Shown piece by piece: positions 5,275 to 20,873 of a DNA stretch of 43,395 nt (position 1 is the first letter of the stretch; each line of letters begins with the position of its first letter). A program made the translations under genes and the position numbers. Source of the DNA: Sphingomonadales bacterium (GTDB lineage Bacteria; Pseudomonadota; Alphaproteobacteria; Sphingomonadales; Sphingomonadaceae); NCBI GenBank assembly GCA_012032285.1, contig JAAURJ010000024.1:1-43395 (forward strand), written 5' to 3'. Below the pieces are notes generated by a model that was not told where the DNA came from, searched no databases, and was given only the letters and a program-made list of their open reading frames with translations.

Positions 5275-6259
5275 TCATGCGGTGACAAGCATACCATGTT
5301 CTTTGATAAACGCCCCTGCCGCCCCATATAGGCCCGGCTGTTCGTGCATTAACTGTTTCACCGCGATGGTTTCCATCAGGCTTTCAAACCGCCCCTTTGC
5401 CCGGAACCGTTCGCGAAAGCCCGATGATGGCAAACGATGCGCAATCCGGCTGCCAAGGCGCCTGCAATCACCACCGAACGCGCACCATGGGCGAGCGTGA
5501 CATCGCCTGCGAAGGAACCAAGGCATAGGCAGAAACGGTCAAAAGCGGCGGCGGCAATGCTGTCTTCGCCCGACAAGGCCAATTGCCATAAGGCTTTATC
5601 ATCCAGCTGCTTTGCCTGCTGCCCTTCCATTTCGGCAAACACCTTATAGATGACCTGAAGCCCCGGTCCCGCGACGATCCGTTCCACCGAAACGCGGCGA
5701 TGATGTTCGCGCAATTTTTGCAACAAGCGATCTTCGATAATATCATGCGGGGCAAAATCGACATGGCCGCCTTCGGTTTCGGTCACATGATAACCCGATG
5801 CCATTTTGAGCACATGGGCAACGCCAAGGCCAGTGCCCGGCCCCAATATGGTTACCAGCCCCTGATCCGGAATGTCCGTTTGTGGCCCGCATATATGTTG
5901 GAACTGATCGCTGCCGAGCAACGCGACCGCATGGCCGACGGCGCCAAAATCATTGATCAGGGTGAACCGGTCAAGACCCAGTTTTCCGGAATCATCGCCG
6001 GGCGGATCATCCAGCTATTATTGGTAAGATGCAGCACTTCCCCGCCGACATGGCCCGCCACTGCAATCGCCCCGCTGCGCGGTAATGGCCGTCCGATTTC
6101 TCGGCCATAGGCCTGCCAAGCGGTCTGCAAACTGGGATGGTCGCCGCTTTTCAAGGTCAATTGATCGTTAAGCGAGACGATATGACCATCATCAATGGTC
6201 GCAATGGCAAAACGCGCATGGGTGCCGCCAATGTCGGAAACAACAATTTCTTCTGTCAT
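5275..6259 (-). pseudogene. glk: Glucokinase, split by two single-base frameshifts
   Basis: Three consecutive frames together encode one ROK-independent bacterial glucokinase (Glk family, ~320 residues), which phosphorylates glucose with ATP. N-terminal part (start 6259): VSDIGGTHARFAIATI, the phosphate-binding loop. Middle: FTLINDFGAVGHAVALL, LGPGTGLGVAH and TETEGGHVDFAP. End: SRIAHRLPSSGFRERF and KGRFESLM. The breaks fall near 5965 (one base missing, giving VLT-RFTLIND) and near 5445 (one G missing, giving IAGGLGSRI). Each is repaired by one base, so sequencing error is at least as likely as true inactivation. It lies in the glucan locus, with a LacI-type operator about 150 bp upstream at 6407-6420. 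It would feed glucose released from oligosaccharides into central metabolism. Confidence 0.85.
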
Positions 6260-6406
6260 AATATAAAAATGCTTCCGTCCATCAAAACCAATTGCTTAAC
6301 TGTAGCACAGTAAACAAAAATTATGCATTTGATAAAGGGTGCTATTTTCTCCCTACCCAATATATTCCCGCCCATATCCCCAAATGCAGGCGGAATCGTG
6401 ATTGAA

Positions 6407-6420
6407 TGACAGCGTTGTCA
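6407..6420. promoter_or_regulatory. LacI-type operator upstream of glk
   Basis: TGACAGCGTTGTCA is a near-perfect palindrome matching the locus consensus TGACAAGCTTGTCA except in the central bases. It lies between the 3' end of the halogenase gene (6498) and the glucokinase start (6259), so it can only control glk on the minus strand. Confidence 0.65.
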
Positions 6421-6497
6421 GTAAAAGGCAAGTGGTTGGTTGTTTTTTTTGTAATTTTTGCGTTATTTTGTTTCAATAATGACTTTGCATCTTTTGC

Positions 6498-7997
6498 CTA
6501 AAGCGCGGCAATATGGTCACGAATATAATCATCATGCGTGGGCATATGGTCGGCCGATGCATTGATCGTTTGCAGCATAGCCGACAATTTGCGCCTAATC
6601 TCCTCTACATCCATCATGTCAACCAGCGGATGATAGTGCTTTGGAAATATACCCTGTCCATTGAACACAGCCAACCAGTTGGAGGCTTTGAACAGCTCTT
6701 CTTCCTGATAGCTAATTTGCCCGCACGCCCGAAACAGCTCGATTTTCTCTGTCAAGCTGTCAGGATTTTTTCGGGCTTTGTTATACCGCCAAAATTCCGA
6801 ATCCTCCCGCGCCGTGGCGTTATAATGAAGGATCAGGAAATCGCGGATATAGTCATATTCCCGCTCCGTGCGCCGATTATATTCCGCCGCCACGCGGTCA
6901 TCAAAACCCTTGTTCGGGAAAAAAGCCATCAATCGTTGCAAGGCCGATTGGATCATATGAATCGAGGTCGATTCCAGCGGCTCCATAAAACCGGAGGACA
7001 GACCAATGGCGAGGCAATTTTTCACCCAGCTTTTCTTGCGGCGTCCGGTTGTAAATCGAAGCTGACGGGGATCGGCCAGCGCCTTGCCCTCCAAATTGCC
7101 GAGTAACGTTGCCGCCGCTTCATCGTCGCTGATATAATCGCTGCAATAAACATGGCCGTTGCCCATGCGGTTTTGCAACGGTATCCGCCATTGCCAGCCC
7201 GCATCATGCGCCGTCGCCCGTGTATAGGGCAAAGGCGGCCCGTTAACCTCACAGGGCACAGCCACGGCGCTGTTGCAGGGCAGCCAATGCGACCAATCCG
7301 CATAGCCCGCCTGCAATGTCTGTTCGATCAACAGGCCGTAAAATCCGGTGCAATCGATAAAGAAATCCGCCGCAAACTGCCTGCCATCGTCCAACGTCAC
7401 CGATTGCAGGAATCCGTCGCTGCCGCGTTGCTGCACCTGTTGCACCTTGCCCTCGACGCGCTCCACACCCCGTTCTTCGCTATATTCACGCAAATATTGT
7501 GCAAATAAACCGGCATCAAAATGAAAGGCATAGGCGATGGAGCCAAGTGGCGAACGGGGAATATCCAGCGGACGGGTAAATTTGCCCGCACGGGCGGCAA
7601 CCGCTTGAAAGGCATAATCTTCCAAGGGGCGTGTATCGCCTGCCTGCCGCATCTTCATCCAATAATGATGAAATGCTATGCCCTGCATATCAAAGCCATA
7701 TTTGCCAAAGGGGTGCATATAGCGTTCGCCCATCGCGCCCCAATTCACAAATTCAATACCCAATTTGAAGGTCGCCTGGGTCCGCCGGACAAATTCATCC
7801 TCATCAATGCCCAGCATATTGATAAAGTTCAATATGGGCGGGATCGTCGCTTCGCCAACACCAACGGTGCCGATCTGTTCGGATTCGATCAACGTGACCT
7901 GAATATTCTTACCCATCAACCGGGCCAGCATGGACGCCGCCATCCATCCAGCAGTCCCGCCGCCGATGATCAGGATTTTTTCTATTGGACTATTCAA
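6498..7997 (-). CDS. Flavin-dependent tryptophan-halogenase-family protein (paralogue 1)
   Basis: About 499 residues from a TTG start at 7997 (MNSPIEKILI), chosen because AGGAG at 8006-8010 is well spaced and the length fits the family; a longer frame to 8054 also begins with TTG but has no good ribosome site. The FAD-binding GGGTAGWMAA, the halogenase lysine in TFKLGIEF (K78), the WxWxIP motif (GWQWRIPLQ) and the Glu/Ser motif PLESTSIHMIQ are all intact. By family knowledge these enzymes use FADH2, O2 and halide to halogenate indoles or other aromatics. It follows the JmjC/cupin gene by ~70 bp and is probably co-transcribed. No flavin reductase is encoded nearby. The natural substrate is unknown; similar proteins sit next to TonB-dependent receptors in many sphingomonads and Caulobacterales. 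Confidence 0.85.
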   Translation of the reverse strand: MNSPIEKILIIGGGTAGWMAASMLARLMGKNIQVTLIESEQIGTVGVGEATIPPILNFINMLGIDEDEFVRRTQATFKLGIEFVNWGAMGERYMHPFGKYGFDMQGIAFHHYWMKMRQAGDTRPLEDYAFQAVAARAGKFTRPLDIPRSPLGSIAYAFHFDAGLFAQYLREYSEERGVERVEGKVQQVQQRGSDGFLQSVTLDDGRQFAADFFIDCTGFYGLLIEQTLQAGYADWSHWLPCNSAVAVPCEVNGPPLPYTRATAHDAGWQWRIPLQNRMGNGHVYCSDYISDDEAAATLLGNLEGKALADPRQLRFTTGRRKKSWVKNCLAIGLSSGFMEPLESTSIHMIQSALQRLMAFFPNKGFDDRVAAEYNRRTEREYDYIRDFLILHYNATAREDSEFWRYNKARKNPDSLTEKIELFRACGQISYQEEELFKASNWLAVFNGQGIFPKHYHPLVDMMDVEEIRRKLSAMLQTINASADHMPTHDDYIRDHIAAL

Positions 7998-8066
7998 CTC
8001 TGCTGCTCCTGCCCATTTTTTCAACCTAATGCAGAAAAGCCAAGGCGTAGACAATCCATTTCATGG

Positions 8067-9074
8067 TCATAGCATTCTTCCCAATGTGTTTCGTATAAAA
8101 CCCAATATCGCGTTGGTTCTTTGTTGGCTTGGAGAACCCAACACCCCCTGCGCATGGGCTGGAATATGCTGCGCTGCATGGCTTGCACCTGGGCCAAAGA
8201 TATAATGATCAAAATAGGTCCGCCACGCCTGTTTTTCAGGCAATGGCCGGTCTCGTAATGCGAGCATGGATAGCGCCAAAGCCTGCATTTGCAATGCAGC
8301 CTCATTAGAAGACCACCAATAATTGACCAATATATTAAAAGGTCCGGTTGCTTCAACATGGTGCCACCATAAGGGAGGTAGAAACAAGGCATCACCTGGT
8401 TCTAACTCTGCGACTAGAGCAGAATCCATTGCATCGCGGAATTTCGGAAATCGATCATAACCAGGCTTGGCAAAGTCAACCAGACTAACTGGCGGCCCTG
8501 CCATATTATATTCAAGCGGCCCTATATAAAGATTATTAATTTGTTCCGGCGGAAAAATGGTGAAGACCCTCTGACCTGCAACAGCACAAGCAATATTGTA
8601 ATCAACATCGAAATGCGCCGCAACACATGACCGGTTTCCAATCCATAGCCGCGGTTCGACTGAACCCGGTAATAGCGGCATGGAATTGTCATTCGGGAAA
8701 TTAGGCGCAACCTGCGAAGCGGGAACCGAGCCTGCATACATAGCCATGGCGTTATCCTGCCCTATGACTTCGATCATTTTGTCAAGCAGGGCTGCCATGG
8801 GAACATTGCGGCGTTCAAAGTTAAACCCCCGCATTTGTGCATCATAAAAATGACGGCCTTTTTGCTCATTAGGTGCGAAGATAGATTGTATAGGCCTGCC
8901 ATTATCTAGTTTTTTCAGATAAGCTGTGGTGTTTTCAGGGGATATTTGCGCTGCTTTCGAAACCGGCCAATTCGCTACCAATTGTTTTAGGATAGCGGGT
9001 TGGCCGCCATTGAGGATGCTGCCTTCAAATGTAGCGCGGTCCATATCGTGATATACAGCGATGGATTTGTTCAT
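8067..9074 (-). CDS. JmjC/cupin-8-like Fe(II)/2-oxoglutarate oxygenase-type protein
   Basis: About 335 residues. The cupin-like domain holds the first metal ligands in AHFDVDYNIACAVAGQ (HxD) and the distal His region in PPLWWHHVEATGPFNILVNYWW. Preceding features are GQPAILKQLVANWPV and ARWIG-like PRLWIGNRS. This is the cupin_8/JmjC layout of asparaginyl or lysyl hydroxylases, usually acting on proteins or small molecules. The start is uncertain: GTG 9089, TTG 9083 and ATG 9074 share a frame, and GGGAG at about 9091-9095 suits the TTG best; ATG is given as conservative. It lies downstream of the TonB-dependent receptor and upstream of a halogenase, a recurrent grouping in glycan loci of this order. 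The biochemical role is not established. Confidence 0.8.
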   Translation of the reverse strand: MNKSIAVYHDMDRATFEGSILNGGQPAILKQLVANWPVSKAAQISPENTTAYLKKLDNGRPIQSIFAPNEQKGRHFYDAQMRGFNFERRNVPMAALLDKMIEVIGQDNAMAMYAGSVPASQVAPNFPNDNSMPLLPGSVEPRLWIGNRSCVAAHFDVDYNIACAVAGQRVFTIFPPEQINNLYIGPLEYNMAGPPVSLVDFAKPGYDRFPKFRDAMDSALVAELEPGDALFLPPLWWHHVEATGPFNILVNYWWSSNEAALQMQALALSMLALRDRPLPEKQAWRTYFDHYIFGPGASHAAQHIPAHAQGVLGSPSQQRTNAILGFIRNTLGRML

Positions 9075-9177
9075 AACGGTCAAACACACTCCCTAGCACT
9101 GTTATAATTGGCTGTGATGAAACAAAGGTCAATGGCGCAATCACCAACCGCATTCTATCATGCATGAAGCAAAAGAA

Positions 9178-9203
9178 ATGGCGGCCGTTTTACGGGCCGC
9201 CAT
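9178..9203 (-). terminator. Rho-independent terminator after the TonB-dependent receptor
   Basis: On the minus strand ATGGCGGCC (9203-9195) pairs with GGCCGCCAT (9186-9178) across an 8-nt loop and is followed by TTTCTTTT. It lies 27 bp past the receptor stop codon, so the cupin-halogenase pair downstream probably depends on read-through or its own promoter. Confidence 0.75.
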
Positions 9204-9229
9204 CTCAAAAAACTACAGGAGCTTCTGGA

Positions 9230-12200
9230 TCAGAAGTTGAAACGCAGACCAAAGGTATAGCGTGTATCGTTCGAGAAGTAAGAACGCGGAGCGTCCGGGC
9301 CCCGAACGTTATTGATCGGCTGACCACTAGCATCATACTCACCTGAGAATTGCGCAGTCACCTGGCTTGTTTCTACAACTTCGTTGAGGATATTTGAAAC
9401 CTGCAGACCAATTTTGAAATTCTTATTGATGGTATAGAAAAGCGAACCATCAAGGGTTCCCGATGCCTCGTTGAAAATCGGCGAGTTCGGACGAATAACG
9501 TCACGCCGAGTCAAGAGGAATCGGTCGCGCCAGCTGTATGCAAGCCGTCCGGAAATGCCATATTTTTCATACAAAAGTCCGGCGTTAAAGGCATGCTTAG
9601 ATAGACCTTCAAAAGGATAGCTGAAGCCGACATAACGCACTTCAGGGTTGTCGTTCGGGTTGGCAAAGTTGCCGACAGCGACCTGTGAAGGGAAACCGGA
9701 TCCATCAATATAGGTATAGTTCGCTTCTAAACCAAAACCGGCAAGTGGGCCAGGAAGGAAATCATAGAATTGCTGATAGCCAACCTCAAATCCTTTTACA
9801 GTCGCTTGACCAATATTAACAAAACTGCTCACCAATACATCTTCGGTAAGGCCGTTGATGGTCAACGGGCTGATCGTGGTACCTACACCTACCAGATTAT
9901 CAAGCTTCTTGTAAAATGCGTTGAACGTTACCGAGCCCCCGGCGGAGTTGAAATAATATTCAACACCCAAGTCAAAGTTAGTGGAAAGCACCGGCCTTGC
10001 ACTCGGATCTGCAGAGAAAGTCGAGAACAAAGGCTCCGTCCCGCCTGCACTTAGATCATTTTGGCCCAAAGTAATGCTGTATAATGTCCGGCCAAAATCA
10101 GGACGCGACATTGCTCGTGATACGGCAAAGCGTGTGATCAGGTTATCCGACCAATGCATATTGATATTAAAGCTTGGCAGCCAATAATCATAGTCATTGC
10201 GGATACGCGATTCTTGCGAACCGGCATTAAGAACATTTAGGATACGGGTCTGCTCAGCCGTCGTTACCCGACAAACAAGCGGTAAGCGCCCGTTCGTTGG
10301 TGGGTTGGCATTCACCTGTGCGCAGAATTGCGCGACGTTAGCGTTTGTTACCGGAACCTGATCAACCTGACCATTCAATGGTGTCGGGTCAAATTGAATT
10401 GGGTTTGCGCTAATCGAACCAACGGTGAAGAAATTGGTGTTTGCATAGCGCACACCAACGTTACCATTGATTGAAGTGCCGGCGCCAAAGGGTTCATCCC
10501 ATCCAAAGTCGGCACGAATGTAACCCGCCCAAGTTTCTTCGCGGCTATAGTTGATATCGCCGGGGGTATAAAAATCACCATCATCGATAATACCATTGCC
10601 ATTGGTGTCGACGCGGTTTGAACGTTCGTTCAGGAATTCTTTACCGCCGCAGCACCCTGCACGCTCCACGCTTTCCGCTAGACGGCGCAACTCGCCACTA
10701 CGATAGATTTCGGCAAGGTTGATGCCACCGCCCGAATAGAGGCTATTGGAAGGCGAAGGTGCGCCACCGCGTTGGAAATTCGGGAAGCCAAAGCCTTCGA
10801 TACCACCAATGCTATTAGTTTGAGAGAAAGGCGAAATGCCTTCACCAGTCCAGTTCTGGCTGAGGTAACCCCAAGTATATCCAGAATATAGACGGGTTTG
10901 ATCACGGTCACTATAACGGCCACCAACTTTCAAATTGCGGAGAAAACCGCCGTCAAATTCGTAATCAAGGTCAGCACGGAATGCCAGCTCTTCGCCTTCA
11001 CTGTCCTCAACATGGTCGAGTAGCGAACGATAGAATACTGCATCAGGATCCGACAGGACATCTGTATTTCCACTGGCATCCGAGAATGTGATGGTAGGGA
11101 TGCTACCCGCTGTGCGATCAATAAACGGTACGATATTCTGGTCGATAGAACCATATACGGTTACGTCGGTATCCTGCGCGGTAGCTTTGGAATATTGACC
11201 ATCGAAGGTAAGAGACAAACGCTCTGTGGGGTGCAGCTCTATGTTAAGTGAAAAATCGTCATTGGTATTGCGACGCTGCTGATCACGGCGGTTAATGTTG
11301 ATTGGAATGCCGCCATTCGCATCAAGTGCGCCTGTAAGGAGCAAACCGTTACTGTCAAAAGTGAAAGGAAGCCCCAAACCCGGATTAGGCTGCGGGCCCT
11401 GGTCAAAAATATCGCCCTCAAAAGTGCGCTCACTCCAACCTTGATTGGCTTCGGCGCGAATATATTCAGCCGTGACCTTTGCCGATCCGTCAAGCGATTC
11501 CCACTGCAGAACACCATCAATTGTCTTACGGTCACGGTCAAAAGTCTGCTGACGCACAGATGCGCTACGCGGAACATAGCTGGTGGGATCACCCGCCGCT
11601 GTCAATTCGGGACGCGCCCGATAGTCCGACAGCGCCGAACCAAAGGCAGCCGATTCAAGCTCGCCGCGGCTGTAGCTGAGCTGCAGGCCGAAATCGCCGA
11701 TGCCGGTTTCGAACACATTGCTCGCCAAGATAGAATAAGAAGGCGTGATTTCTTTGCGCACATTGCCATAGTTGGCCTCAATCGTGCCCGCAATAATCAA
11801 CTTACGCGAATCAAGTGGCTTGCGGGTCCGCAAATTCACGAGACCCGAAATCGCACCTTCAATCTGATCAGACGTGGAGTTTTTGTAAACCAACACACTG
11901 CCGAGCAGTTCAGGCGCAATATCGTTAAAGCCCAGTGAACGGCCACTATTTACAGAGAAAGCGTCACGACCGTTAAATTCGGAGCGCGTGAAGGGAAGGC
12001 CGCGGATAACAACGTTCGCGCCCTCGATCGAAAAGTGATCAGGATCATCAACGCCTTGGAAACGGTTGATCGATACGCCGGGAATACGTTGCAGCGTTTC
12101 GTTAACCGATTTGTCGGGAAACGCGCCAATATCTTCTGCGGTGATTGCATCCACGAATGTATCGGCTTCGCGTTTGATGTTTTGCGCGGATTCGATACGG

Positions 12201-12394
12201 GCGCGGATACCGGTAACGATAATCTCATTTTCATCCGCATTTTCTTCTGCAGCAGATGTATCAGCCGTATCTTGCGCAAAGGCGGGCGTAGATACCATAA
12301 GGCCCAAAGCCAGCACAGATGCGCCGGACAAAAGCCGCTTCACGCCGCGCGATGCGGACGCAGGATATAATTCACTTGGTACACGGTTTAACAT
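9230..12394 (-). CDS. TonB-dependent outer-membrane receptor (oligosaccharide type)
   Basis: 1054 residues from ATG 12394, preceded by GGGAGGA at good spacing. A signal peptide ends at STPAFAQ. A short acidic linker leads to EIIVTGIRARIE, the TonB-box-like start, then the plug domain (VNETLQRIPGVSINRFQG, NVVIRGLPFTRSEFNGRD) and a long beta-barrel ending in the aromatic FGLRFNF. Length and plug type fit the large TonB-dependent receptors used by sphingomonads and Caulobacterales to import oligosaccharides with energy from TonB-ExbBD. Divergent to the GH5 glucanase, with a LacI operator between them. The neighbouring GH5 and glucokinase suggest a beta-glucan or cello-oligosaccharide substrate, which is inference. 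Confidence 0.93.
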   Translation of the reverse strand: MLNRVPSELYPASASRGVKRLLSGASVLALGLMVSTPAFAQDTADTSAAEENADENEIIVTGIRARIESAQNIKREADTFVDAITAEDIGAFPDKSVNETLQRIPGVSINRFQGVDDPDHFSIEGANVVIRGLPFTRSEFNGRDAFSVNSGRSLGFNDIAPELLGSVLVYKNSTSDQIEGAISGLVNLRTRKPLDSRKLIIAGTIEANYGNVRKEITPSYSILASNVFETGIGDFGLQLSYSRGELESAAFGSALSDYRARPELTAAGDPTSYVPRSASVRQQTFDRDRKTIDGVLQWESLDGSAKVTAEYIRAEANQGWSERTFEGDIFDQGPQPNPGLGLPFTFDSNGLLLTGALDANGGIPININRRDQQRRNTNDDFSLNIELHPTERLSLTFDGQYSKATAQDTDVTVYGSIDQNIVPFIDRTAGSIPTITFSDASGNTDVLSDPDAVFYRSLLDHVEDSEGEELAFRADLDYEFDGGFLRNLKVGGRYSDRDQTRLYSGYTWGYLSQNWTGEGISPFSQTNSIGGIEGFGFPNFQRGGAPSPSNSLYSGGGINLAEIYRSGELRRLAESVERAGCCGGKEFLNERSNRVDTNGNGIIDDGDFYTPGDINYSREETWAGYIRADFGWDEPFGAGTSINGNVGVRYANTNFFTVGSISANPIQFDPTPLNGQVDQVPVTNANVAQFCAQVNANPPTNGRLPLVCRVTTAEQTRILNVLNAGSQESRIRNDYDYWLPSFNINMHWSDNLITRFAVSRAMSRPDFGRTLYSITLGQNDLSAGGTEPLFSTFSADPSARPVLSTNFDLGVEYYFNSAGGSVTFNAFYKKLDNLVGVGTTISPLTINGLTEDVLVSSFVNIGQATVKGFEVGYQQFYDFLPGPLAGFGLEANYTYIDGSGFPSQVAVGNFANPNDNPEVRYVGFSYPFEGLSKHAFNAGLLYEKYGISGRLAYSWRDRFLLTRRDVIRPNSPIFNEASGTLDGSLFYTINKNFKIGLQVSNILNEVVETSQVTAQFSGEYDASGQPINNVRGPDAPRSYFSNDTRYTFGLRFNF

Positions 12395-12490
12395 ATTTTC
12401 CTCCCAAAAAGGCGTGACAGCCCCGTCACACCCAATAAAAAACGGCTGGTAAGCCCAGCTCAAACACGAACATCGCCTATTCCCCATTTA

Positions 12491-12504
12491 TGACAAGCTT
12501 GTCA
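12491..12504. promoter_or_regulatory. Perfect 14-bp LacI operator between TonB receptor and GH5 gene
   Basis: TGACAAGCTTGTCA is an exact palindrome in the 236-bp divergent region. It lies 97 bp from the receptor start and 127 bp from the GH5 start, so it may control both. Near-identical copies occur at 6407, 14876 and 19476. Confidence 0.8.
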
Positions 12505-12543
12505 ACGACTGTTTTGGAGGTTATTTCAAATTTCGTCAAAACG

Positions 12544-12557
12544 TGACATCTTTGTTA
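12544..12557. promoter_or_regulatory. Possible weak second operator upstream of GH5 gene
   Basis: TGACATCTTTGTTA keeps both outer half-site cores of the consensus (10 of 14 positions) 53 bp from the perfect operator, about five helical turns. It could be an auxiliary site for looping. It is the weakest of the set. Confidence 0.35.
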
Positions 12558-12630
12558 CAGCTAGCCGCTGTCAACGGAAAGAATCGAAAAAAATCATCGC
12601 GCTGTTTCGCGTCGCAAAGGGGAAAAAACA

Positions 12631-13719
12631 ATGAAGGAAATCGCATCGAATCGCAAGATAAGCCAAAAGCTTGTCTCAATGATAACAGCGGCGGCATTGC
12701 TTGCGCCGACGGCGCTGACCGCGCAAACGCCGCCGCCGGGCGGCAAGCCTTACACAAGCGTTCCTTCTGTTCCTATCAAACGCTGCGCCAATTTGGGCAA
12801 TATGTTTGAACAACCAAAAGGCGCGGCCTGGGGCGGGCGGATGCCGGTGGAGAAGGATTTGGCCGAAATTGCCGCCATTGGTTTTGACACGGTGCGTTTT
12901 CCGGTGCGCTGGTCGGCTTATGCCGATAGCAAACCGCCCTATACAATCGACCCCGAAATGTTCAAAAAAGCGGATGAGGTGGTTGATTGGGCGACCAAGC
13001 ATAAGCTGAATATCATCGTCGACCTGCATCATTATGATGAACTTTTCACTGATCCCGATGGCCATAAGGACCGCTTCATTGGACTTTGGCAGCAATTGGC
13101 CGAACATTATAAGGACCGCGGCGAAAATGTTTTCTTTGAAGTCATCAATGAACCGCATAACAAGCTGACCAATGATGTCGTCGAACCTATGCTCACCGCC
13201 ATTCTTGCCGATATTCGCAAAACCAACCCGACGCGCAAAGTGATTATGGGCGGTGATTTTTGGAGCGGTATATCGTCGCTCGAAACATTTGATCCGCCCA
13301 AGGATCCCAATGTCATTGCGACATTCCATTTTTACGAACCGTTTAATTTCACGCACCAAGGGGCAAGCTGGGTTAACCCCTCCCCCCCTGCGCCCGCCAG
13401 CTTTGGTAGCGAGGAGGATTATGCCTGGCTTGATAAAATGGCCGATGCCACCATCAAATTCCAACAGCGCACAGGCGTGCCGTTGTTCCTAGGCGAATTT
13501 GGCGCGATTGACAGTGCGCCGTTAAAAGAACGGGCGCGCTATACCTATGCTGTACGCAAACAGGCAGAGGCGCTGAATATTGGTTGGTGCGTATGGGCTT
13601 ATACCAATACCTTTCATGTCCGTCAGGGTGAGGAATGGATTCCTTCGATGGTTGCCGCATTGGGCTTGCAGCAAGCACCTGCGGCAAAATCAGAAGAAAG
13701 CCCTGCCAAGTCGGAGTGA
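12631..13719 (+). CDS. Secreted GH5 family endoglucanase
   Basis: 362 residues. A signal peptide of about 30 residues (AAALLAPTALTAQ) is followed by one glycoside hydrolase family 5 barrel. Catalytic residues are visible: the acid/base Glu in FFEVINEPHNK (E174) and the nucleophile Glu in PLFLGEFGAID (E289). Supporting sites are VRFPVRWSAY, DLHHYDELF and FHFYEPFNFTHQG. Such enzymes hydrolyse beta-1,4-glucans or related beta-glucans; no carbohydrate-binding module is present. The C-terminus ends in a short Ala/Glu/Ser tail. It is divergent from the TonB-dependent receptor and controlled from the same region. A periplasmic or surface role in cutting imported oligosaccharides fits. The exact substrate (cellulose, lichenan, mannan) is not readable from the sequence. 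Confidence 0.92.
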   Translation: MKEIASNRKISQKLVSMITAAALLAPTALTAQTPPPGGKPYTSVPSVPIKRCANLGNMFEQPKGAAWGGRMPVEKDLAEIAAIGFDTVRFPVRWSAYADSKPPYTIDPEMFKKADEVVDWATKHKLNIIVDLHHYDELFTDPDGHKDRFIGLWQQLAEHYKDRGENVFFEVINEPHNKLTNDVVEPMLTAILADIRKTNPTRKVIMGGDFWSGISSLETFDPPKDPNVIATFHFYEPFNFTHQGASWVNPSPPAPASFGSEEDYAWLDKMADATIKFQQRTGVPLFLGEFGAIDSAPLKERARYTYAVRKQAEALNIGWCVWAYTNTFHVRQGEEWIPSMVAALGLQQAPAAKSEESPAKSE

Positions 13720-13763
13720 TAGTGCGTTATATCGGGACCGGTCGCCTTTACAGCCTATCAAGC

Positions 13764-14801
13764 TTAGGCCGCCGGCACCCCAGCCGAATCGCGTTCGATC
13801 AATGCGTGTTGCAGGAAAATGGTGGTTTCCCCTTGCTCGCTGCTAAAGCTTTGTGCGATATTTTCGGACAATAGCTGCACCGCATTGGCGGCAAGATCGG
13901 CAATAGGTTGGCGGATGGTGGTCAGATGCGGGCTGATAATGCCGGCAATCGGGGTGTCATCAAAACCCACAACCGATAATTGGCCGGGCACTGATATATT
14001 GCGGCGATAGGCGGCTGCAATAATCGCCGCCGCCATATCATCATTACTGGCAAAAATAGCGGTGGGCGGCTCGTCCATATTCAAAAGCGATTCAGCGCAT
14101 TCAAGGCCGCTGGCATAGTCAAAATAGCCCTGCCGTATCAAGGCTGGATCAGGCTCTATCCCTTGACCGCGCAGCGCATCGCAATAGCCAGCATAACGTT
14201 TGACAGAAGCGCCATGGTCGGGGTGGCCGCGAATATAGCCAATACGGCTGTGCCCAAGCTTTAGCAGATAGTCGGTAATCTCTTTCGCGGCGGCCATATC
14301 ATCCATATTTACCGAATATTTCGTACTGGCCGGGTCAACCGGAGCCACAAGGACATAGGTGCAGCCCTGTTCCTCAAGCAATTCGATCACTTCGGGGTCA
14401 TCGCATAGCGGCGGCGTCACTATCAGGCCAACCGGAGATAAGGATTTCAGGATCCTGCGGACATCGCTGACACCATTTGGGCATTCATCCAGAACCAGTT
14501 GCATCGACAATTCATGACATTTGGCAAGCGCCCCGAAATGCACATTTTCCAAATAGCTTCGGCTAGGGTTATTGACCAATAGCGCAACAATCTGTGTCGT
14601 GCCCGCCCGCAATGTCCGCGCCGCTTGATTAAGCTTATAATCCAGCCGCGCCGCTGCATCGAGCACCGCAGTCTTGGTCTCTTCACGAACATAGCTTTCT
14701 TTGTTCAGCACGCGCGACACGGTTTTAAGTGATACGCCCGCCTCCCGCGCGACATCGACCATGGTCGATCGTCTATTCCCTCTTATTGCTGTTTGTTCCA
14801 T
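13764..14801 (-). CDS. LacI-family transcriptional repressor of the glucan locus
   Basis: 345 residues from ATG 14801, chosen for the AAGGAA site six bases upstream. Residues ~13-33 are the DNA-binding helix-turn-helix (MVDVAREAGVSLKTVSRVLN), followed by the hinge region (LDYKLNQAARTLRAG) and a periplasmic-binding-like sensor domain with VGLIVTPPL, GYIRGHPDHGASVKRYAGY, AIFASNDDMAAAI, LSVVGFDDTPIAGIISPHLT and TIRQP. Such proteins release DNA when a sugar binds. The operator at 14876-14889 lies between this gene and the divergent halogenase operon, so autoregulation is likely. The three other operators make it the probable regulator of the glucokinase, receptor/GH5 and transporter genes. The effector sugar is unknown. 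Confidence 0.92.
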   Translation of the reverse strand: MEQTAIRGNRRSTMVDVAREAGVSLKTVSRVLNKESYVREETKTAVLDAAARLDYKLNQAARTLRAGTTQIVALLVNNPSRSYLENVHFGALAKCHELSMQLVLDECPNGVSDVRRILKSLSPVGLIVTPPLCDDPEVIELLEEQGCTYVLVAPVDPASTKYSVNMDDMAAAKEITDYLLKLGHSRIGYIRGHPDHGASVKRYAGYCDALRGQGIEPDPALIRQGYFDYASGLECAESLLNMDEPPTAIFASNDDMAAAIIAAAYRRNISVPGQLSVVGFDDTPIAGIISPHLTTIRQPIADLAANAVQLLSENIAQSFSSEQGETTIFLQHALIERDSAGVPAA

Positions 14802-14875
14802 GCCAATTCCTTCCCCCGAATTCATCCGCATATATGTATTGATTCTTATGCTGACTATTAAAATCTATATCGTCA

Positions 14876-14889
14876 AGACAAGCTTGTCA
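14876..14889. promoter_or_regulatory. LacI operator between lacI-type gene and halogenase operon
   Basis: AGACAAGCTTGTCA matches 13 of 14 positions of the perfect palindrome at 12491. It is 45 bp upstream of the halogenase start (14935) and 74 bp upstream of the repressor start (14801), placing it where it could repress both promoters. Confidence 0.78.
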
Positions 14890-14934
14890 TAAATGACGCT
14901 TAGTTCTATCGCAAATGGCCTTAGGAGGCGGAAG

Positions 14935-16485
14935 ATGTCCATAAACGCGAATTTTGTAAACAATGTGGTCATTGTCGGCGGCGGCACAGCGGGATGGATG
15001 ACGGCCGCCGCGCTCAGCCATAAATTCGGTAATACAGGAACGCAGATCACCCTTGTCGAATCCGCCGAAATCGGCACAGTTGGCGTGGGCGAAGCCACTT
15101 TGCCGCATATCCGTTTTTTTAACGCTGCTATGGGCATAGATGAAACCGACCTGATGGCGCGGACGCAGGCGACATTCAAATTGGGTATTGAGTTTTGCGG
15201 ATGGGGCAAGGAGGGCGAAAGCTATATCCACCCCTTTGGCGATTATGGCGAACCGCATAATGGCATTGCATTCCACCATTTATGGACACAGCAAAGATTG
15301 GCAGGCAATGCCAAAAGGATATGTGAATATAGCCTGCCGGTAATGATGGCAGAGGCAAACCGATACGCGATGCCGGATGCCGATCCCAATGCCTTGCTAT
15401 CCACCTTTGGCTATGCCTATCAATTTGATGCCAGCCTTTATGCCGCCCATTTGTCGCAATTATCGCAAAAGCGCGGCGTCAAACGGGTGGAGGGCAAAAT
15501 CACCCATGCCAAGCGGAGCGCCGATACAGGCCGAATCAGCGCGGTAGTTTTAGAAAATGGTGCGCAGGTGGAGGGGGATTTATTCGTCGATTGCTCCGGC
15601 TTTCGCGGCCTGCTGATCGAACAGGAGTTGAAGACCGGATATGAGGATTGGTCCCACTATCTGCCGTGTAACCGCGCACTTGCCGTGCCGTGCGAACCAT
15701 CCGGCCCCATTGGTCCCTATACCCGGGCGACCGCGCGAAAGGCGGGCTGGCAATGGCGCATTCCGTTGCAACACCGGATCGGCAATGGCCATGTCTATTG
15801 CAGCGATTATATCAGCGATGATGAAGCCGCCGCTATTTTGATAGACAATTTGGAGGGACCAGCGATCGCCGAGCCGCGTCCGCTTTTTTTCAAAACCGGA
15901 CGGCGTAACAAATTATGGAACGGCAATGTGGTTTCTATCGGCCTGTCAGGCGGATTTTTGGAGCCGCTGGAATCAACAAGTATCCATTTGATCCAACAAG
16001 GAATAACCGCGCTGGTAGAATTATTCCCCACACAGGATAGCATGGAGGAGGATGCAGCCGAATATAATGCAATGATGCGGCTGGAATTTGACCGGGTGCG
16101 TGATTTTTTGGTGCTGCATTATGTCGCCAATCAGCGCGAGGGCGAAAAATTCTGGGACGATATGCGCCGCATGGAATGGCCGGCATCGCTCAAAGAAAAG
16201 GTCGCGGCTTTTGTTCATAGCGGGATAATCCCAAGCTATGATGTCGGTGCGTTTTTACCGCCGAGCTGGCTTGCGGTTTTTGTGGGGCAGAATATCGTGC
16301 CGCAAGCTTATGATCCGCGCCTGGATCACCTTGACAGCGCCGCGATTGCCAGCAGCATGGAAGAGCGGCGGCGCCAGATTGCAGATGCGGTTAACACCCT
16401 TCCTGTGCATATGGATTTCGTGCGCGGCCATTGCCCCGGAGCAATGGTTGCTGAAATGGTTGCCGAGAAGATCCCGTCGCTATGA
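14935..16485 (+). CDS. Flavin-dependent tryptophan-halogenase-family protein (paralogue 2)
   Basis: 516 residues from ATG 14935, preceded by AGGAGG (14923-14928); an upstream in-frame ATG at 14893 lies too close to the operator and has no ribosome site. Intact family features are GGGTAGWMTAAAL, the lysine of TFKLGIEF (K82), DLFVDCSGFRGLLIEQ, the WxWxIP motif GWQWRIPLQHR, and PLESTSIHLIQ. It is the first gene of a three-gene run with ATGA overlaps (16482-16485, 17927-17930), so the three products are made together. It shares much sequence with paralogues 1 and 4, e.g. HVYCSDYISDDEAA. The chemistry, if any, would be FADH2-dependent halogenation of an aromatic; the substrate and its link to glucan use are unknown. 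Confidence 0.87.
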   Translation: MSINANFVNNVVIVGGGTAGWMTAAALSHKFGNTGTQITLVESAEIGTVGVGEATLPHIRFFNAAMGIDETDLMARTQATFKLGIEFCGWGKEGESYIHPFGDYGEPHNGIAFHHLWTQQRLAGNAKRICEYSLPVMMAEANRYAMPDADPNALLSTFGYAYQFDASLYAAHLSQLSQKRGVKRVEGKITHAKRSADTGRISAVVLENGAQVEGDLFVDCSGFRGLLIEQELKTGYEDWSHYLPCNRALAVPCEPSGPIGPYTRATARKAGWQWRIPLQHRIGNGHVYCSDYISDDEAAAILIDNLEGPAIAEPRPLFFKTGRRNKLWNGNVVSIGLSGGFLEPLESTSIHLIQQGITALVELFPTQDSMEEDAAEYNAMMRLEFDRVRDFLVLHYVANQREGEKFWDDMRRMEWPASLKEKVAAFVHSGIIPSYDVGAFLPPSWLAVFVGQNIVPQAYDPRLDHLDSAAIASSMEERRRQIADAVNTLPVHMDFVRGHCPGAMVAEMVAEKIPSL

Positions 16486-17930
16486 CCCGGAAATCCCCAT
16501 CCCCTTATATTCAGATATTGGGCGGCGGCCTTGCCGGTTGGAGCGCCGCAGCGATATTGGCCGAGCAGTTTTCCGGAACAGCCGCTATCCATATTGATGG
16601 CGCACAGGAGGATACGCCCGCCGAGAGCGCCGCCTATGCGCATATGATCCTTGGCGGCGAATCGATATTGATGCAGCATATCGGCATGACCCCGGCTGAT
16701 TTGATAACCCTTGGCAGGGGTGGTTTCTGGCTTGGCACCTGTTTTGAAAAATGGGGCGCAAAAGGCAGGAATGTCTATCACGCACCGGGTGAAGCCTTGC
16801 CGGTTAAGGACGGACTATCCGCGCATCAGATTTTGCGCCGCCTATCGGTGCAGGAGGGTAAGGATGGGCTGTTTACCGATCTGTGCTTACCGCTTGCTTT
16901 TCAGGCGCGCATGGCAGCAGCGGGCAAGTTCAGCCCGCCATCGGCCGACCGGCAATCACCACGATCGCTGCTGCGGCCTGGCGTTGCTTTGGACGGTTCC
17001 GCGCTGACCGCAGTGATGCGGGATAAGGCCATGGCGTCAGGTGTGCGGGTGGCGGCGGGCATGGAGGATGAACCCTTGCTCATTGTCGATTGCAGGCCGC
17101 AGGAAAAAGCAAAGGATATAGATTGCAGGCAGGCTCTTGGCTTTGACCGATATGTAACGCTGCGGCTTGAAGGGGCCATGCCGCATCCACCACATGATAG
17201 CATCCGTCCGCTGGATAATGGCTGGATGACGATATTGCCGCTGCAAGGCGGCGCTCTTATCACCCTTTATTATCATTCCAGCCATTGGACAGATGCGCAG
17301 GCAAAGCAGGCGGCCTATGATGCGCTGCCCGAAAGCGCGGCCGCCATTATTACAAGCGGCCCGATATATCCCGGCCGGATGGAGCGACCGTGGCAGGGTA
17401 ATAGCGTGCATCTGGGCGTTGGCGCTGCGCAGCTTGGCTCCGCTATGGGAGCAGAGGTCACATTGCTTTCGCATCAATTGGAAACATTGATTACGCTTTT
17501 GCCCGGCGGCAAGGGCGATGATATGCCGAGCAAAAGCGCCGAATATAACCGCAGGGTCGCGGCCCATTTTGACCATATCCGCGATTTTCTGCACCTGCCT
17601 TTTGTCCGCAACGGCCTGACCGGTCCATATTGGGAACAAGCAAAAAAGCAGGCTATCGCGCCCGATCTGCACCGCCGCCTTGGTCAGTTTGAAAGGCGCG
17701 GATTACTGGTGATGATTGACGATGATCCGTTTGAAAAGCATAGCTGGCTGGAAATGATGACGGGGCTTGGTATCATCCCTGCGCTGTATGACCATGTCAC
17801 CGACGGCGTTGATCTATCCGCAAAAATGCGCGACTTGGGGTCGATGGTGGTTGCTTTTGACCAGACGATAGCCGCTATGCCGACACATGAAGATTTTCTG
17901 GCCCAAATGGCCGCTAGGATGACAGGATGA
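16482..17930 (+). CDS. Divergent, probably non-halogenating halogenase-family protein (paralogue 3)
   Basis: 482 residues, start overlapping the previous stop (ATGA). The FAD-binding loop is kept (LGGGLAGWSAAAIL), and the ends of the protein still align (HFDHIRDFLHLPF, SWLEMMTGLGIIPALYDH, MPTHEDFLAQM). The catalytic marks of flavin halogenases are gone. TFKLG is replaced by GFWLG (W83 at the lysine position), WxWxIP is replaced by GWMTILPLQGG, and the PLESTSIH motif is replaced by GAEVTLLSHQ. It may be a partner subunit or a flavoprotein with another chemistry. It is conserved as an unbroken frame between two intact paralogues, which argues that it is not decaying. Confidence 0.75.
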   Translation: MTRKSPSPYIQILGGGLAGWSAAAILAEQFSGTAAIHIDGAQEDTPAESAAYAHMILGGESILMQHIGMTPADLITLGRGGFWLGTCFEKWGAKGRNVYHAPGEALPVKDGLSAHQILRRLSVQEGKDGLFTDLCLPLAFQARMAAAGKFSPPSADRQSPRSLLRPGVALDGSALTAVMRDKAMASGVRVAAGMEDEPLLIVDCRPQEKAKDIDCRQALGFDRYVTLRLEGAMPHPPHDSIRPLDNGWMTILPLQGGALITLYYHSSHWTDAQAKQAAYDALPESAAAIITSGPIYPGRMERPWQGNSVHLGVGAAQLGSAMGAEVTLLSHQLETLITLLPGGKGDDMPSKSAEYNRRVAAHFDHIRDFLHLPFVRNGLTGPYWEQAKKQAIAPDLHRRLGQFERRGLLVMIDDDPFEKHSWLEMMTGLGIIPALYDHVTDGVDLSAKMRDLGSMVVAFDQTIAAMPTHEDFLAQMAARMTG

Positions 17931-19447
17931 ACAACACAGCAAAAGCGGTAAAAAAAATTGTCATTGTCGGCGGGGGCACTGCGGGCTGGATGACAGCGGC
18001 GGCGCTCGGCCATGTCTTTCGCGGCAGCGATGTGCGCATTGACCTGATCGAATCGGAGGATATTGGCACAGTCGGCGTGGGCGAGGCCACCATCCCGGAA
18101 ATATTGAAATTCAACGCCATGCTCGGCATTCATGAGGCCGATTTTCTGCGGGCAACAAAAGCTACGTTCAAACTGGGCATCGAATTTATCGGCTGGACAA
18201 AGGATGGCGAGCGTTATTTTCACCCCTTTGGCGTCTATGGCACCGATATGGAAGGGATCAGTTTTCACCATTTCTGGCTCAAGGCACGCGCACAAGGCCA
18301 TGATATAGCGCTGTCCGATTTCTGTCTCGCTTGGCAAGCAGGGGTGAAGGGGCGCTTTGCCCATCCCGCAGGGCCGCCCAATGCGCCGCTCGGCACGCTC
18401 AGCTATGCCTATCATTTTGATGCCGTGCTTTATGCCCGCTTCCTCCGGCAATATGCCGAAGCCCATGGCGTGCACCGCCATCAGGGGAAGGTTACGGAGG
18501 TCAAGCAGAATGGCAATAACGGCAATATCCGGGCGGTGCGTATCGAAGACGGCCGCGAATTTGCCGGCGATCTGTTCGTTGATTGCACCGGTTTTTATGG
18601 CCTGTTGATCGAAAAGACATTGCAGGCAGGCTATGATGATTGGTCCCACTGGCTGCCCTGTAACAGCGCGGTCGCCGTCCCATCGGAGCGCGATCCCGCC
18701 GCTCCGGGACTGCGCCCTTATACCACGGCGACAACGCGTACAGCCGGCTGGCAATGGAATATCCCGCTGCAACACCGCACCGGCAATGGCTATGTCTATT
18801 GCAACGCCTATATCAGCGACGATGAAGCCGCCGGGACGCTGCTGTCCAACCTGGACGGAAAACCGCTGGCCGATGTGCGCCAATTGCGCTTCACCACTGG
18901 CAAACGCAAACAAGTGTGGAAAAACAACTGCATCGCCATCGGCCTGTCGAGCGGCTTTTTGGAACCCTTGGAATCGACCAGCATCCATTTGATCCAAAGC
19001 GCGATCACAAAGCTGATAAACCTGTTCCCGGCAAGCGCCGACGGCACCGTCAGCAGAGGGGTTTTCAACCGTCTGATCGATCAGGAATTTTCAACAATCC
19101 GCAATTTCCTCATCCTGCATTATAATGTGACTGAACGAACCGGGATGCCGTTTTGGGATCATGTCCGCACCATGGATGTACCCGATTTCCTAACCGATAA
19201 ACGCGCCTTGTTTGAACATAGCGGGCGGATATACCGAGAAGAAAATGAGATTTTCACAGAACCAAGCTGGCTTGCGGTGTTTACTGGCCAAGGGGTTATG
19301 CCCCGCCAATATCACCCCATTGCTAATGTTTTGGGCGCCGAAGAGAATCTGGACCGTTTACAAGCGATCAAAAGCGCAATCATGCAAACCGCCAATGCCA
19401 TGCCCGATCATGGCGAATATGTCGCAAGGATGATTGCCGCAAAATAG
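17927..19447 (+). CDS. Flavin-dependent tryptophan-halogenase-family protein (paralogue 4)
   Basis: 506 residues; the start overlaps the previous stop (ATGA). It carries GGGTAGWMTAAAL, IESEDIGTVGVGEATIPEIL, the lysine of TFKLGIEFIGW (K82), DLFVDCTGFYGLLIEKTL, the WxWxIP motif GWQWNIPLQHR and PLESTSIHLIQSAI. All key family residues are thus present. It is closer to paralogue 1 than to paralogue 2 in several stretches (DWSHWLPCNSAVAVP, CTGFYGLLIE). It is the last gene of the halogenase operon; a further operator and the sugar transporter follow 28-130 bp downstream. The function in this setting is undetermined. Confidence 0.87.
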   Translation: MNNTAKAVKKIVIVGGGTAGWMTAAALGHVFRGSDVRIDLIESEDIGTVGVGEATIPEILKFNAMLGIHEADFLRATKATFKLGIEFIGWTKDGERYFHPFGVYGTDMEGISFHHFWLKARAQGHDIALSDFCLAWQAGVKGRFAHPAGPPNAPLGTLSYAYHFDAVLYARFLRQYAEAHGVHRHQGKVTEVKQNGNNGNIRAVRIEDGREFAGDLFVDCTGFYGLLIEKTLQAGYDDWSHWLPCNSAVAVPSERDPAAPGLRPYTTATTRTAGWQWNIPLQHRTGNGYVYCNAYISDDEAAGTLLSNLDGKPLADVRQLRFTTGKRKQVWKNNCIAIGLSSGFLEPLESTSIHLIQSAITKLINLFPASADGTVSRGVFNRLIDQEFSTIRNFLILHYNVTERTGMPFWDHVRTMDVPDFLTDKRALFEHSGRIYREENEIFTEPSWLAVFTGQGVMPRQYHPIANVLGAEENLDRLQAIKSAIMQTANAMPDHGEYVARMIAAK

Positions 19448-19475
19448 GATGGGCCGCGTTCAGATAATGTTGCAA

Positions 19476-19489
19476 TGACAACCTTGTCA
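19476..19489. promoter_or_regulatory. LacI operator upstream of sugar transporter
   Basis: TGACAACCTTGTCA differs from the perfect palindrome at one central base. It lies 88 bp before the transporter start, between it and the stop of the last halogenase gene, so the transporter has its own regulated promoter. Confidence 0.78.
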
Positions 19490-19577
19490 GTTTATGGACG
19501 ATTGCAGTGGGGGAATCTGTTCGCACATTCGCAATAATATATAACGAGCAGATTACCAGTTTTTGAGGGAGGATTAT

Positions 19578-20873
19578 ATGGCAGCACCCATAGCAGGCGG
19601 CGGAAACGCATCCGGCAGTTATCAAAGCGCAAGCGGCAAAACGACATTGGTTTTATGCCTTGTATTTGCGGTATTTTTCCTGCTGGCAGGCGTTACAAAT
19701 ATCAATGACGCCTTGGTCAAAAAATTCCAGAATATGTTCCAGCTTTCCAATTTCGAAGCGGCGCTGGTGCAATTCGCCTTTTTCACCAGCTATGCGCTAT
19801 TTTCGATTCCGGCGGGCATTTTGCTTCGTAAAATCGGTTTCATCCGGGGCTTTGTCACCGGCTTTTTAATCATCGCGGCCGCCGCTTTGCTGTTTATTCC
19901 GGCGGCAAGCAGCGGGCAATATATCAACTTTTTGGGCGCGTTGTTCCTGATCGGCGGCGGTATCACATTGCTTCAGGTGGCAATGAACCCGCTGGTGACC
20001 ACCTTGGGACCGCCCGAAACATCGCATAGCCGGTTGACCTTTGCCCAAATGTTCAACTCGCTGGGCGCATATTTGATCGTCACCTTTGGCGCTTTTTATA
20101 TTTTGGGCAAACCGTCGGATGTGGACGCCACCACCTTATCGCCCGATGCGCTGGCGGCTTTCCGCCTGCAAGAGGCAGAGGTTATCACCCATGTTTATAC
20201 CGGCGTCGCGATATTCCTGATCGCCATGGCGGCTCTATTCTGGTTTTTCCGTAGCGCCCTTGACGATGCGCAGGCCGATGATGTCGAAGTCGAAGGCACA
20301 TGGACATTGTTCATGAACGATACCCGCCTGCGTTTTGGCGCCTTGTGCATTTTCCTCTATGTCGGTGCAGAGGTCACTATCGGCAGCTTCATCGTCAAAT
20401 ATGTGGGTCTGGACCGTGTTTTGGGCGCATCCGATGAACAGGCAGTCTGGTATTTGTCCAGCTATTGGGGCGGCGCGTTGATCGGCCGTTTTGTGGGCGC
20501 GGGCCTGCTGCGTTTCTTCAATCCCGGTTATGTGCTGACCATCTTTGGCAGCATCGCCATAACACTCATCGCCATTTCCGCTTTTTCCGGCGGTTCTTTA
20601 TCGGCGCTGACCTTGACCGCAGTGGGGCTGTTCAACTCGATCATGTTCCCAACTATTTTTAGCCTCGCCACCGAAGGGATGCGGGCGCAAAAAGCGGCAC
20701 AGGGTTCGGGCATATTGGCAACCGCGATTGTCGGCGGGGCGATTATTCCGCTGATCTATGGCGCAGCGGCCGACGGCATTGGGTTGACGGCCGGGCTGAT
20801 CGTTCCGGTCATCTGCTATGCGATTATTGCAGGCTATGGCGTCTATGCGCGGGGCCGCCGCCCGGTCGCCTGA
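19578..20873 (+). CDS. FucP/GluP-type sugar:H+ symporter (MFS)
   Basis: 431 residues from ATG 19578, with GGGAGG at 19567-19572; the frame is open further upstream but without a better start. About twelve membrane segments are visible. The fucose/glucose-galactose symporter family signatures are FFLLAGVTNINDALVKKFQ, the loop RKIGFIRG, LLQVAMNPLVTTLGPPETS, RLTFAQMFNSLGAYL and YVGAEVTIGSFIVKYVG. The family imports glucose, galactose, fucose or N-acetylglucosamine across the inner membrane. A LacI-type operator upstream and glucokinase in the same regulon point to glucose or a short glucoside as substrate (inference). An intrinsic terminator follows at 20894-20933. Confidence 0.9.
   Translation: MAAPIAGGGNASGSYQSASGKTTLVLCLVFAVFFLLAGVTNINDALVKKFQNMFQLSNFEAALVQFAFFTSYALFSIPAGILLRKIGFIRGFVTGFLIIAAAALLFIPAASSGQYINFLGALFLIGGGITLLQVAMNPLVTTLGPPETSHSRLTFAQMFNSLGAYLIVTFGAFYILGKPSDVDATTLSPDALAAFRLQEAEVITHVYTGVAIFLIAMAALFWFFRSALDDAQADDVEVEGTWTLFMNDTRLRFGALCIFLYVGAEVTIGSFIVKYVGLDRVLGASDEQAVWYLSSYWGGALIGRFVGAGLLRFFNPGYVLTIFGSIAITLIAISAFSGGSLSALTLTAVGLFNSIMFPTIFSLATEGMRAQKAAQGSGILATAIVGGAIIPLIYGAAADGIGLTAGLIVPVICYAIIAGYGVYARGRRPVA

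Follow-up and report, generated by a model that had tools for sequence, protein, structure and literature searches.

The window analysed here, a stretch of 43,395 nucleotides from a member of the Sphingomonadaceae (contig C45 in an assembly of 96 contigs and 2.78 Mb), carries a locus of predicted glucan-use and halogenase genes whose promoters share a palindromic operator of the LacI type. A lacI-type gene lies in mid-locus, where the initial annotation had placed it (13764-14801, minus strand; start at 14801 chosen by a Shine-Dalgarno-like sequence, with the open reading frame (ORF) open from 14831). Its product, the proposed operator-binding protein, has the helix-turn-helix and periplasmic-binding-protein-like effector domains of the family (PF00356, 1.8e-16; PF13377, 8.1e-34), and the structures of LacI, PurR and CcpA match it over most of its length. 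On one side of lacI are a GH5 endoglucanase gene (12631-13719, plus strand), whose product has solved endoglucanases as its best structural matches, a gene for a TonB-dependent receptor of the TonB-Xanth-Caul subfamily (9230-12394, minus; likely start 12394), and the glucokinase gene glk (5376-6259, minus). The last is split into two ORFs in different frames, 6259-5957 and 5921-5376, by a frameshift in the gene or an error of assembly. On the other side stand halB (14935-16485; likely start 14935), halC (16482-17930) and halD (17927-19447), all on the plus strand, followed by a gene for a major facilitator superfamily (MFS) transporter of the gluP (glucose/galactose) subfamily (19578-20873, plus), which exceeds the curated gluP cut-off.

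Four operators found by pattern search stand between these genes, at exactly the four intergenic positions originally reported. The perfect palindrome TGACAAGCTTGTCA (12491-12504) separates receptor and GH5; TGACAGCGTTGTCA (6407-6420), with three mismatches to that palindrome, all central, precedes glk; AGACAAGCTTGTCA (14876-14889) lies between lacI and halB; and TGACAACCTTGTCA (19476-19489) precedes the transporter gene. None is assigned a strand. With start codons taken as those likely from the sequence, the distance from this 14-base-pair (bp) palindrome, of the length of LacI operators, to the downstream start is 147 bp for glk, 96 bp for the receptor gene, 126 bp for GH5, 74 bp for lacI, 45 bp for halB and 88 bp for the MFS gene. 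The 12491 operator is flanked by two weaker strandless sites with one half-site mismatch each, TGACATCTTTGTTA at +53 (12544-12557), already noticed, and TGACAGCCCCGTCA at -76 (12415-12428), previously overlooked. Searching the window for TGACAAGCTTGTCA with up to three mismatches gives 8 matches against 1.01 expected, a number reached in 0 of 100 shuffles. Within the span 5376-20873 the four operators are the only matches and none is intragenic, which bears out the observation, made by eye, that the genes of the locus are free of the motif; the other four matches (5283, 30898, 32083 and 43034) have three mismatches each and fall outside that span.

The operator is not confined to this locus. 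Genome-wide, TGACAASSTTGTCA (S = G or C) with up to two mismatches occurs at 57 places against 24 for a control, well away from the random frequency that would have spoken against a regulatory motif. Exact TGACANNNNTGTCA is found at 11 places, and exact TGACANSSNTGTCA, with G or C at both centre positions, at 8, against 0 for its control pattern. All eight lie at glycan or glucose genes, seven upstream and one within the 5' end of a GH16 gene. Three are in the window (the 14876 site has one half-site mismatch and is thus outside this count); the five distant ones lie before a GH3-gluconolactonase pair (C38), a GH2 gene (C43), zwf-glk-edd (C55) and the GH16 gene (C65), plus the one inside the GH16 gene start. 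The C55 site, TGACATCCTTGTCA, is 111 bp before zwf, and on the opposite side of the C38 site is a divergent gluconokinase gene that exceeds its curated cut-off. A one-mismatch site, TGTCAACGTTGTCA, lies 97 bp before a second GH3 gene (C44). Glycan or glucose genes account for 10 of the 14 places with at most one mismatch to TGACAASSTTGTCA. Two further places with exact half-sites, C19:202 (a P450 gene) and C28:7506 (near glpX), have no clear link to sugar and are likely due to chance, or unexplained.

The genes so marked describe a pathway from the outside in: receptor, GH5 and GH16 glucanases, a GH3 of the BglX type (bit score just at the curated BglX cut-off), a GluP-type transporter, glucokinase, zwf and edd, with a side branch to gluconate through gluconolactonase and gluconokinase. 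The GH2, a beta-galactosidase, is a looser fit. The operator had been taken to define a local regulon; the distant sites at four promoters with exact half-sites, and at the one-mismatch promoter of the second GH3, refute that word, and the operator probably marks a genome-wide glucan-to-glucose regulon. As a separate observation, the edd ORF of C55 (L020:15834-17309, in this genome, G000) encodes 491 amino acids against 606-621 in the relatives G011, G013 and G035 and stops 71 bases from the contig end, so that it may be shortened, frameshifted or affected by the end of the assembly.

Those three relatives encode LacI proteins 58-66% identical to that of the window, and the sites recur upstream of their orthologous genes. 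Exact TGACAAGCTTGTCA is found in the GH5/GH3 region of G011 and G035 and, in G013, which has no called GH5 ORF, before GH3; it is found again before gluconolactonase and before edd-glk in all three. Their lacI/MFS regions carry TGACAAGGTTGTCA (G011, exact) or TGACATCCTTGTCA (G013 and G035, one mismatch), and in each the halogenase cluster has one-mismatch sites with a CG centre at its receptor end, the receptor itself being observed in the stretches from G035 and G011 and not in that from G013. Co-control of receptor, GH5, lacI and MFS genes through one LacI-type operator, as proposed for the window, is supported, with sites kept upstream of orthologues. In G005 a site is kept at GH3-gluconolactonase and another lies near genes without a sugar link. 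The GH3-gluconolactonase operator stands beside a divergent gluconokinase-like gene in G000, G304 and G215 (L018:9640, L231:8420, L236:7746).

Other genes lie near these sites in the relatives. At L195:16900, L196:16390 and L197:16741 the operator falls between gluconolactonase and a divergent ORF, which in G011 (the one scanned) is homogentisate 1,2-dioxygenase, so that a gene of aromatic catabolism may share the operator. A site precedes a gene of 179-189 amino acids in G013, G023 and G035 (L204:9890, L202:8099, L208:9725), adjoined in G013 by a short-chain dehydrogenase gene, and in G011 and G035 a DUF6445 gene (L195:8162-8899, L197:8396-9064) separates lacI from the halogenase cluster.

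The distribution of sites follows that of the regulator. In a quick tree (SH-aLRT, the Shimodaira-Hasegawa-like approximate likelihood ratio test, as its only support measure), the window LacI, whose nearest named relatives are from an uncultured Sphingomonadaceae bacterium (69%) and an uncultured Sphingorhabdus (66%), belongs to a supported clade that comprises 15 rows drawn from 11 genomes. In nine of the 11, the 200 bp before the LacI match contain a site with no more than one mismatch in its half-sites; G150 has one with two half-site mismatches. In a family sample of 298 genomes (the LacI search drew 298 genomes likewise, assumed to be the same set), exact TGACAASSTTGTCA occurs in 20 genomes at 37 places. 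In the LacI search, twelve of the 298 genomes pass an E-value of 1e-82, three of which (G074, G091 and G116, 46-47% identity) are placed elsewhere in the tree, in other clades, leaving nine clade genomes. An exact site is present in seven of these nine and in 13 of the 289 other genomes (Fisher 7e-8, a value that overstates independence among related genomes), and at least three sites are found in 5 of 9 against 0 of 289. In a genus sample of 41 genomes an exact site is present in all five LacI-bearing genomes and in two of 36 others, four of which (G061-G064) lay outside the LacI search; one of the two, G021, has a single intragenic site, and the other is G023. G213 and G150 each have an exact site in the space separating pckA from a two-component regulator gene (L232:7526, L235:7308), hinting that there the operator may reach central carbon metabolism, perhaps gluconeogenesis, rather than glucan genes.

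The centre of the operator varies. Among 33 compiled sites it is GC in 14, CC in 10, GG in five and CG in four, in a sample that is not neutral, most sites having been found with a pattern demanding G or C at both centre positions. A central CpG step is typical of LacI-family operators without defining them. None of the 37 family places has a CG centre, yet in Caulobacter loci zwf is preceded by TGACAACGTTGTCA. The hinge of the regulator reads LRAG, LRSG or LRVG in the window clade (LRAG in the window LacI) against LAG in the Caulobacter proteins, while the recognition-helix core KTVSRV is common to both; that hinge and operator centre change together is a guess.

These observations are, in our view, quite likely best explained as a whole by one mechanism, whose binding, repression and sugar effector we infer from sequence. 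The window LacI would bind TGACAASSTTGTCA as a dimer and repress its own gene together with promoters throughout the genome that serve the use of glucan and glucose. Its targets in the window would be the receptor with GH5, glk, the GluP-type transporter and, most likely, halB-halC-halD; its distant targets would be the BglX-type GH3 with gluconolactonase (and the divergent gluconokinase), GH16, GH2, the second GH3 and zwf-glk-edd. The repressor would leave its sites in the presence of glucose, or of a short beta-glucoside derived from glucan, and uptake, hydrolysis, phosphorylation and entry into the Entner-Doudoroff pathway would therefore be induced together.

For the halogenase genes the support is partial. 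HalB and HalD belong to the tryptophan-halogenase family and contain the WxWxIP motif; HalC is a divergent homologue without it, and short divergent homologues also occur within the clusters of G011, G013, G035 and G087. Neighbouring genes share 4-base overlaps, and halB-halC-halD looks like a single operon behind the 14876 site. The same site might instead serve lacI autoregulation only, leaving the halogenase operon outside its control, a reading that we consider unlikely. The 14876 site shares bases with a promoter-like -35 hexamer of lacI (14890-14885, minus), and the site before lacI is kept in the nine clade genomes mentioned above whatever gene stands opposite. The halogenase clusters of G011, G013, G035 and G087 have no upstream site within two mismatches of TGACAASSTTGTCA; searched by half-site, G035 and the locus L089 of a Henriciella metagenome-assembled genome show none with up to two mismatches. 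But half-site candidates do appear in G011, with one mismatch (TGACAATATTTTCA, at the halB ORF start), and in G013 and G087, with two; the window site is 45 bp upstream of where halB likely starts; and G304 has two exact TGACAAGCTTGTCA operators, 34 bp apart (L230:2987, L230:3021), in the region that separates a halB homologue (66%) from a divergent receptor gene. In G215 two sites are spaced alike, as known from their positions only. Two Nitrospirillum loci have one-mismatch CGACAACGTTGTCA sites with a second weak site alongside (L073:7357, L097:7310), that in L073 just upstream of a 37% halogenase homologue. Halogenase control by the operator thus appears well supported in two of the seven loci viewed (the window and G304), and the proposal that halogenases share the control of glucan genes is supported for these two, the four other Sphingomonadaceae clusters offering weak candidates at best.

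A fourth halogenase gene, halA (6498-8054, minus; tryptophan-halogenase family, with WxWxIP), lies downstream of a gene for a cupin-like protein (Cupin_8; 8067-9074, minus). No operator for either was found in the window search, as had been noted. The suggestion that the pair relies on read-through from the receptor gene is less favoured: read-through is unlikely because a terminator-like stem of 12 pairs, eight of them G-C (9206-9175, minus), follows the receptor gene and a promoter-like site, TTGACC-17-AATTAT (9132-9104, minus), precedes the cupin gene. Both signals are consensus matches, of kinds whose totals are near the shuffled background (20 vs 18.5; 21 vs 17.1). Away from the locus, the window ORF 1830-2687 matches the FmrO ribosomal RNA methyltransferase family (PF07091).

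Besides the site-poor halogenase clusters, several observations weigh against control of the whole set by the window LacI. Four of the 14 near-exact places in the genome have no sugar link: C19:10738, C51:743 and C77:50077 are intragenic and C46:3569 is before purB, and all four were set aside as likely chance or unexplained. G005 encodes a LacI of the clade (53%) and has no convincing site at its own lacI gene, and two of the nine clade genomes of the family sample (G069 and G264) lack exact TGACAASSTTGTCA. No site with fewer than three mismatches was found in the 1.2 kb examined at zwf of G035, G013, G023, G005 and G011; zwf was accordingly rejected as a conserved target, G011, G013 and G035 carrying the site at edd-glk instead. 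Conversely, G023 has three exact sites and no clade LacI was found in it (best 27% identity, in a genome 86% complete), and the 13 non-clade genomes of the family sample have one or two exact sites each; G087, the one of the 13 that was viewed, encodes a LacI of 38% identity in which the helix core is the same. Other LacI proteins of the window's own genome share the KTVSRV core, so cross-binding is possible.

From this comes the alternative that the sites are read by another LacI, or by several with the same recognition helix, the window LacI controlling its neighbours or itself only. LacI homologues are encoded at five further places in the genome (VKTVSRV at C7:113400, KKTVSRV at C31), and in the genus a LacI clade other than that of the window shows TGACAGCCTTGTCA or TGACAGCCCTGTCA some 90 bp before the LacI match (L123, L127, L134). 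Sites without a clade LacI, in G023 and the 13 family genomes, fit it as well. Against it, presence of the clade predicts the number of sites in both genus and family, and at the remaining LacI genes of this genome the 300 bp preceding the match contain no site with up to two half-site mismatches; we regard this alternative as improbable. That the palindromes are chance or compositional matches is next to inconceivable, and for the four window sites taken together untenable: the two-mismatch background is sizeable and some near-exact sites are intragenic, but the shuffles, the empty control for exact matches and the conservation upstream of orthologues rule it out. Genome-wide action of the window LacI remains the preferred reading.

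The type of regulator is already known; the extent of the regulon and the link to halogenases are the new part. NagR, another LacI-family protein, recognizes a palindrome of the TGACA...TGTCA type. It differs in its targets, since N-acetylglucosamine genes were not recognized at the sites and the MFS transporter scores 139 against a NagP cut-off of 625. An association of halogenase, TonB and LacI is not named in the titles or abstract openings of the papers listed from the open PMC library, which is no proof of absence. According to one paper on Xcc4156, it is still unknown what BrvH and three Xanthomonas halogenases act on naturally. The halogenase link is what could matter beyond annotation, as it ties halogenase genes to a sugar repressor. 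Tentatively, and with some doubt, we propose that one sphingomonad LacI clade merges the tasks of BglR and GluR and puts flavin-dependent halogenases under induction by glucan or glucose, the halogenases serving polysaccharide use and not secondary metabolism. If so, they might for example modify glucan-linked aromatic groups or the uptake machinery, and the shared inducer would give a handle on their natural substrate by showing where to look.

GluR of Caulobacter (CC2053, LacI family) is predicted to control zwf-pgl-edd-glk and gnl-gfo, according to a LacI survey (Ravcheev et al. 2014, PMC4052901), whose main text contains no occurrence of the sphingomonad group name. Caulobacter loci in which zwf-edd-glk is followed by lacI, the order described there for GluR (compared for zwf, edd, glk and lacI), have TGACAACGTTGTCA upstream of zwf and, upstream of lacI, TGACAAGGTTGTCA or TGACAAGGCTGTCA, where a GG centre also occurs; the half-sites are those of the window. 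Control of zwf, edd and glk is likewise suggested, by sequence only, in the C55 site before zwf and the exact edd-glk sites of the three relatives. The window LacI differs in falling into a clade separate from the Caulobacter proteins of L088, L098, L100 and L103 in the quick tree (CC2053 itself was not included), in its LRAG hinge, and in the place of its gene, which is in a glucan locus and not directly downstream of zwf-pgl-edd-glk, zwf-glk-edd being on C55. Its compiled operators are centred on GC in 14 of 33, on CC or GG in 15 and on CG in four. BglR1-3 of the Caulobacterales, in the same survey, and BglR of Shewanella, whose reported targets include a TonB-dependent receptor, glucanase, beta-glucosidases, permease and glucokinase (PMC2996990), are alike in LacI-type control of beta-glucoside genes, a closeness judged by target genes; here the same operator also reaches an Entner-Doudoroff operon and halogenases. 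What emerges is a predicted regulon for sugar use that stands near those of GluR and BglR, with a regulator in a clade of its own, and for sphingomonads a testable, genome-wide regulon of glucan use.

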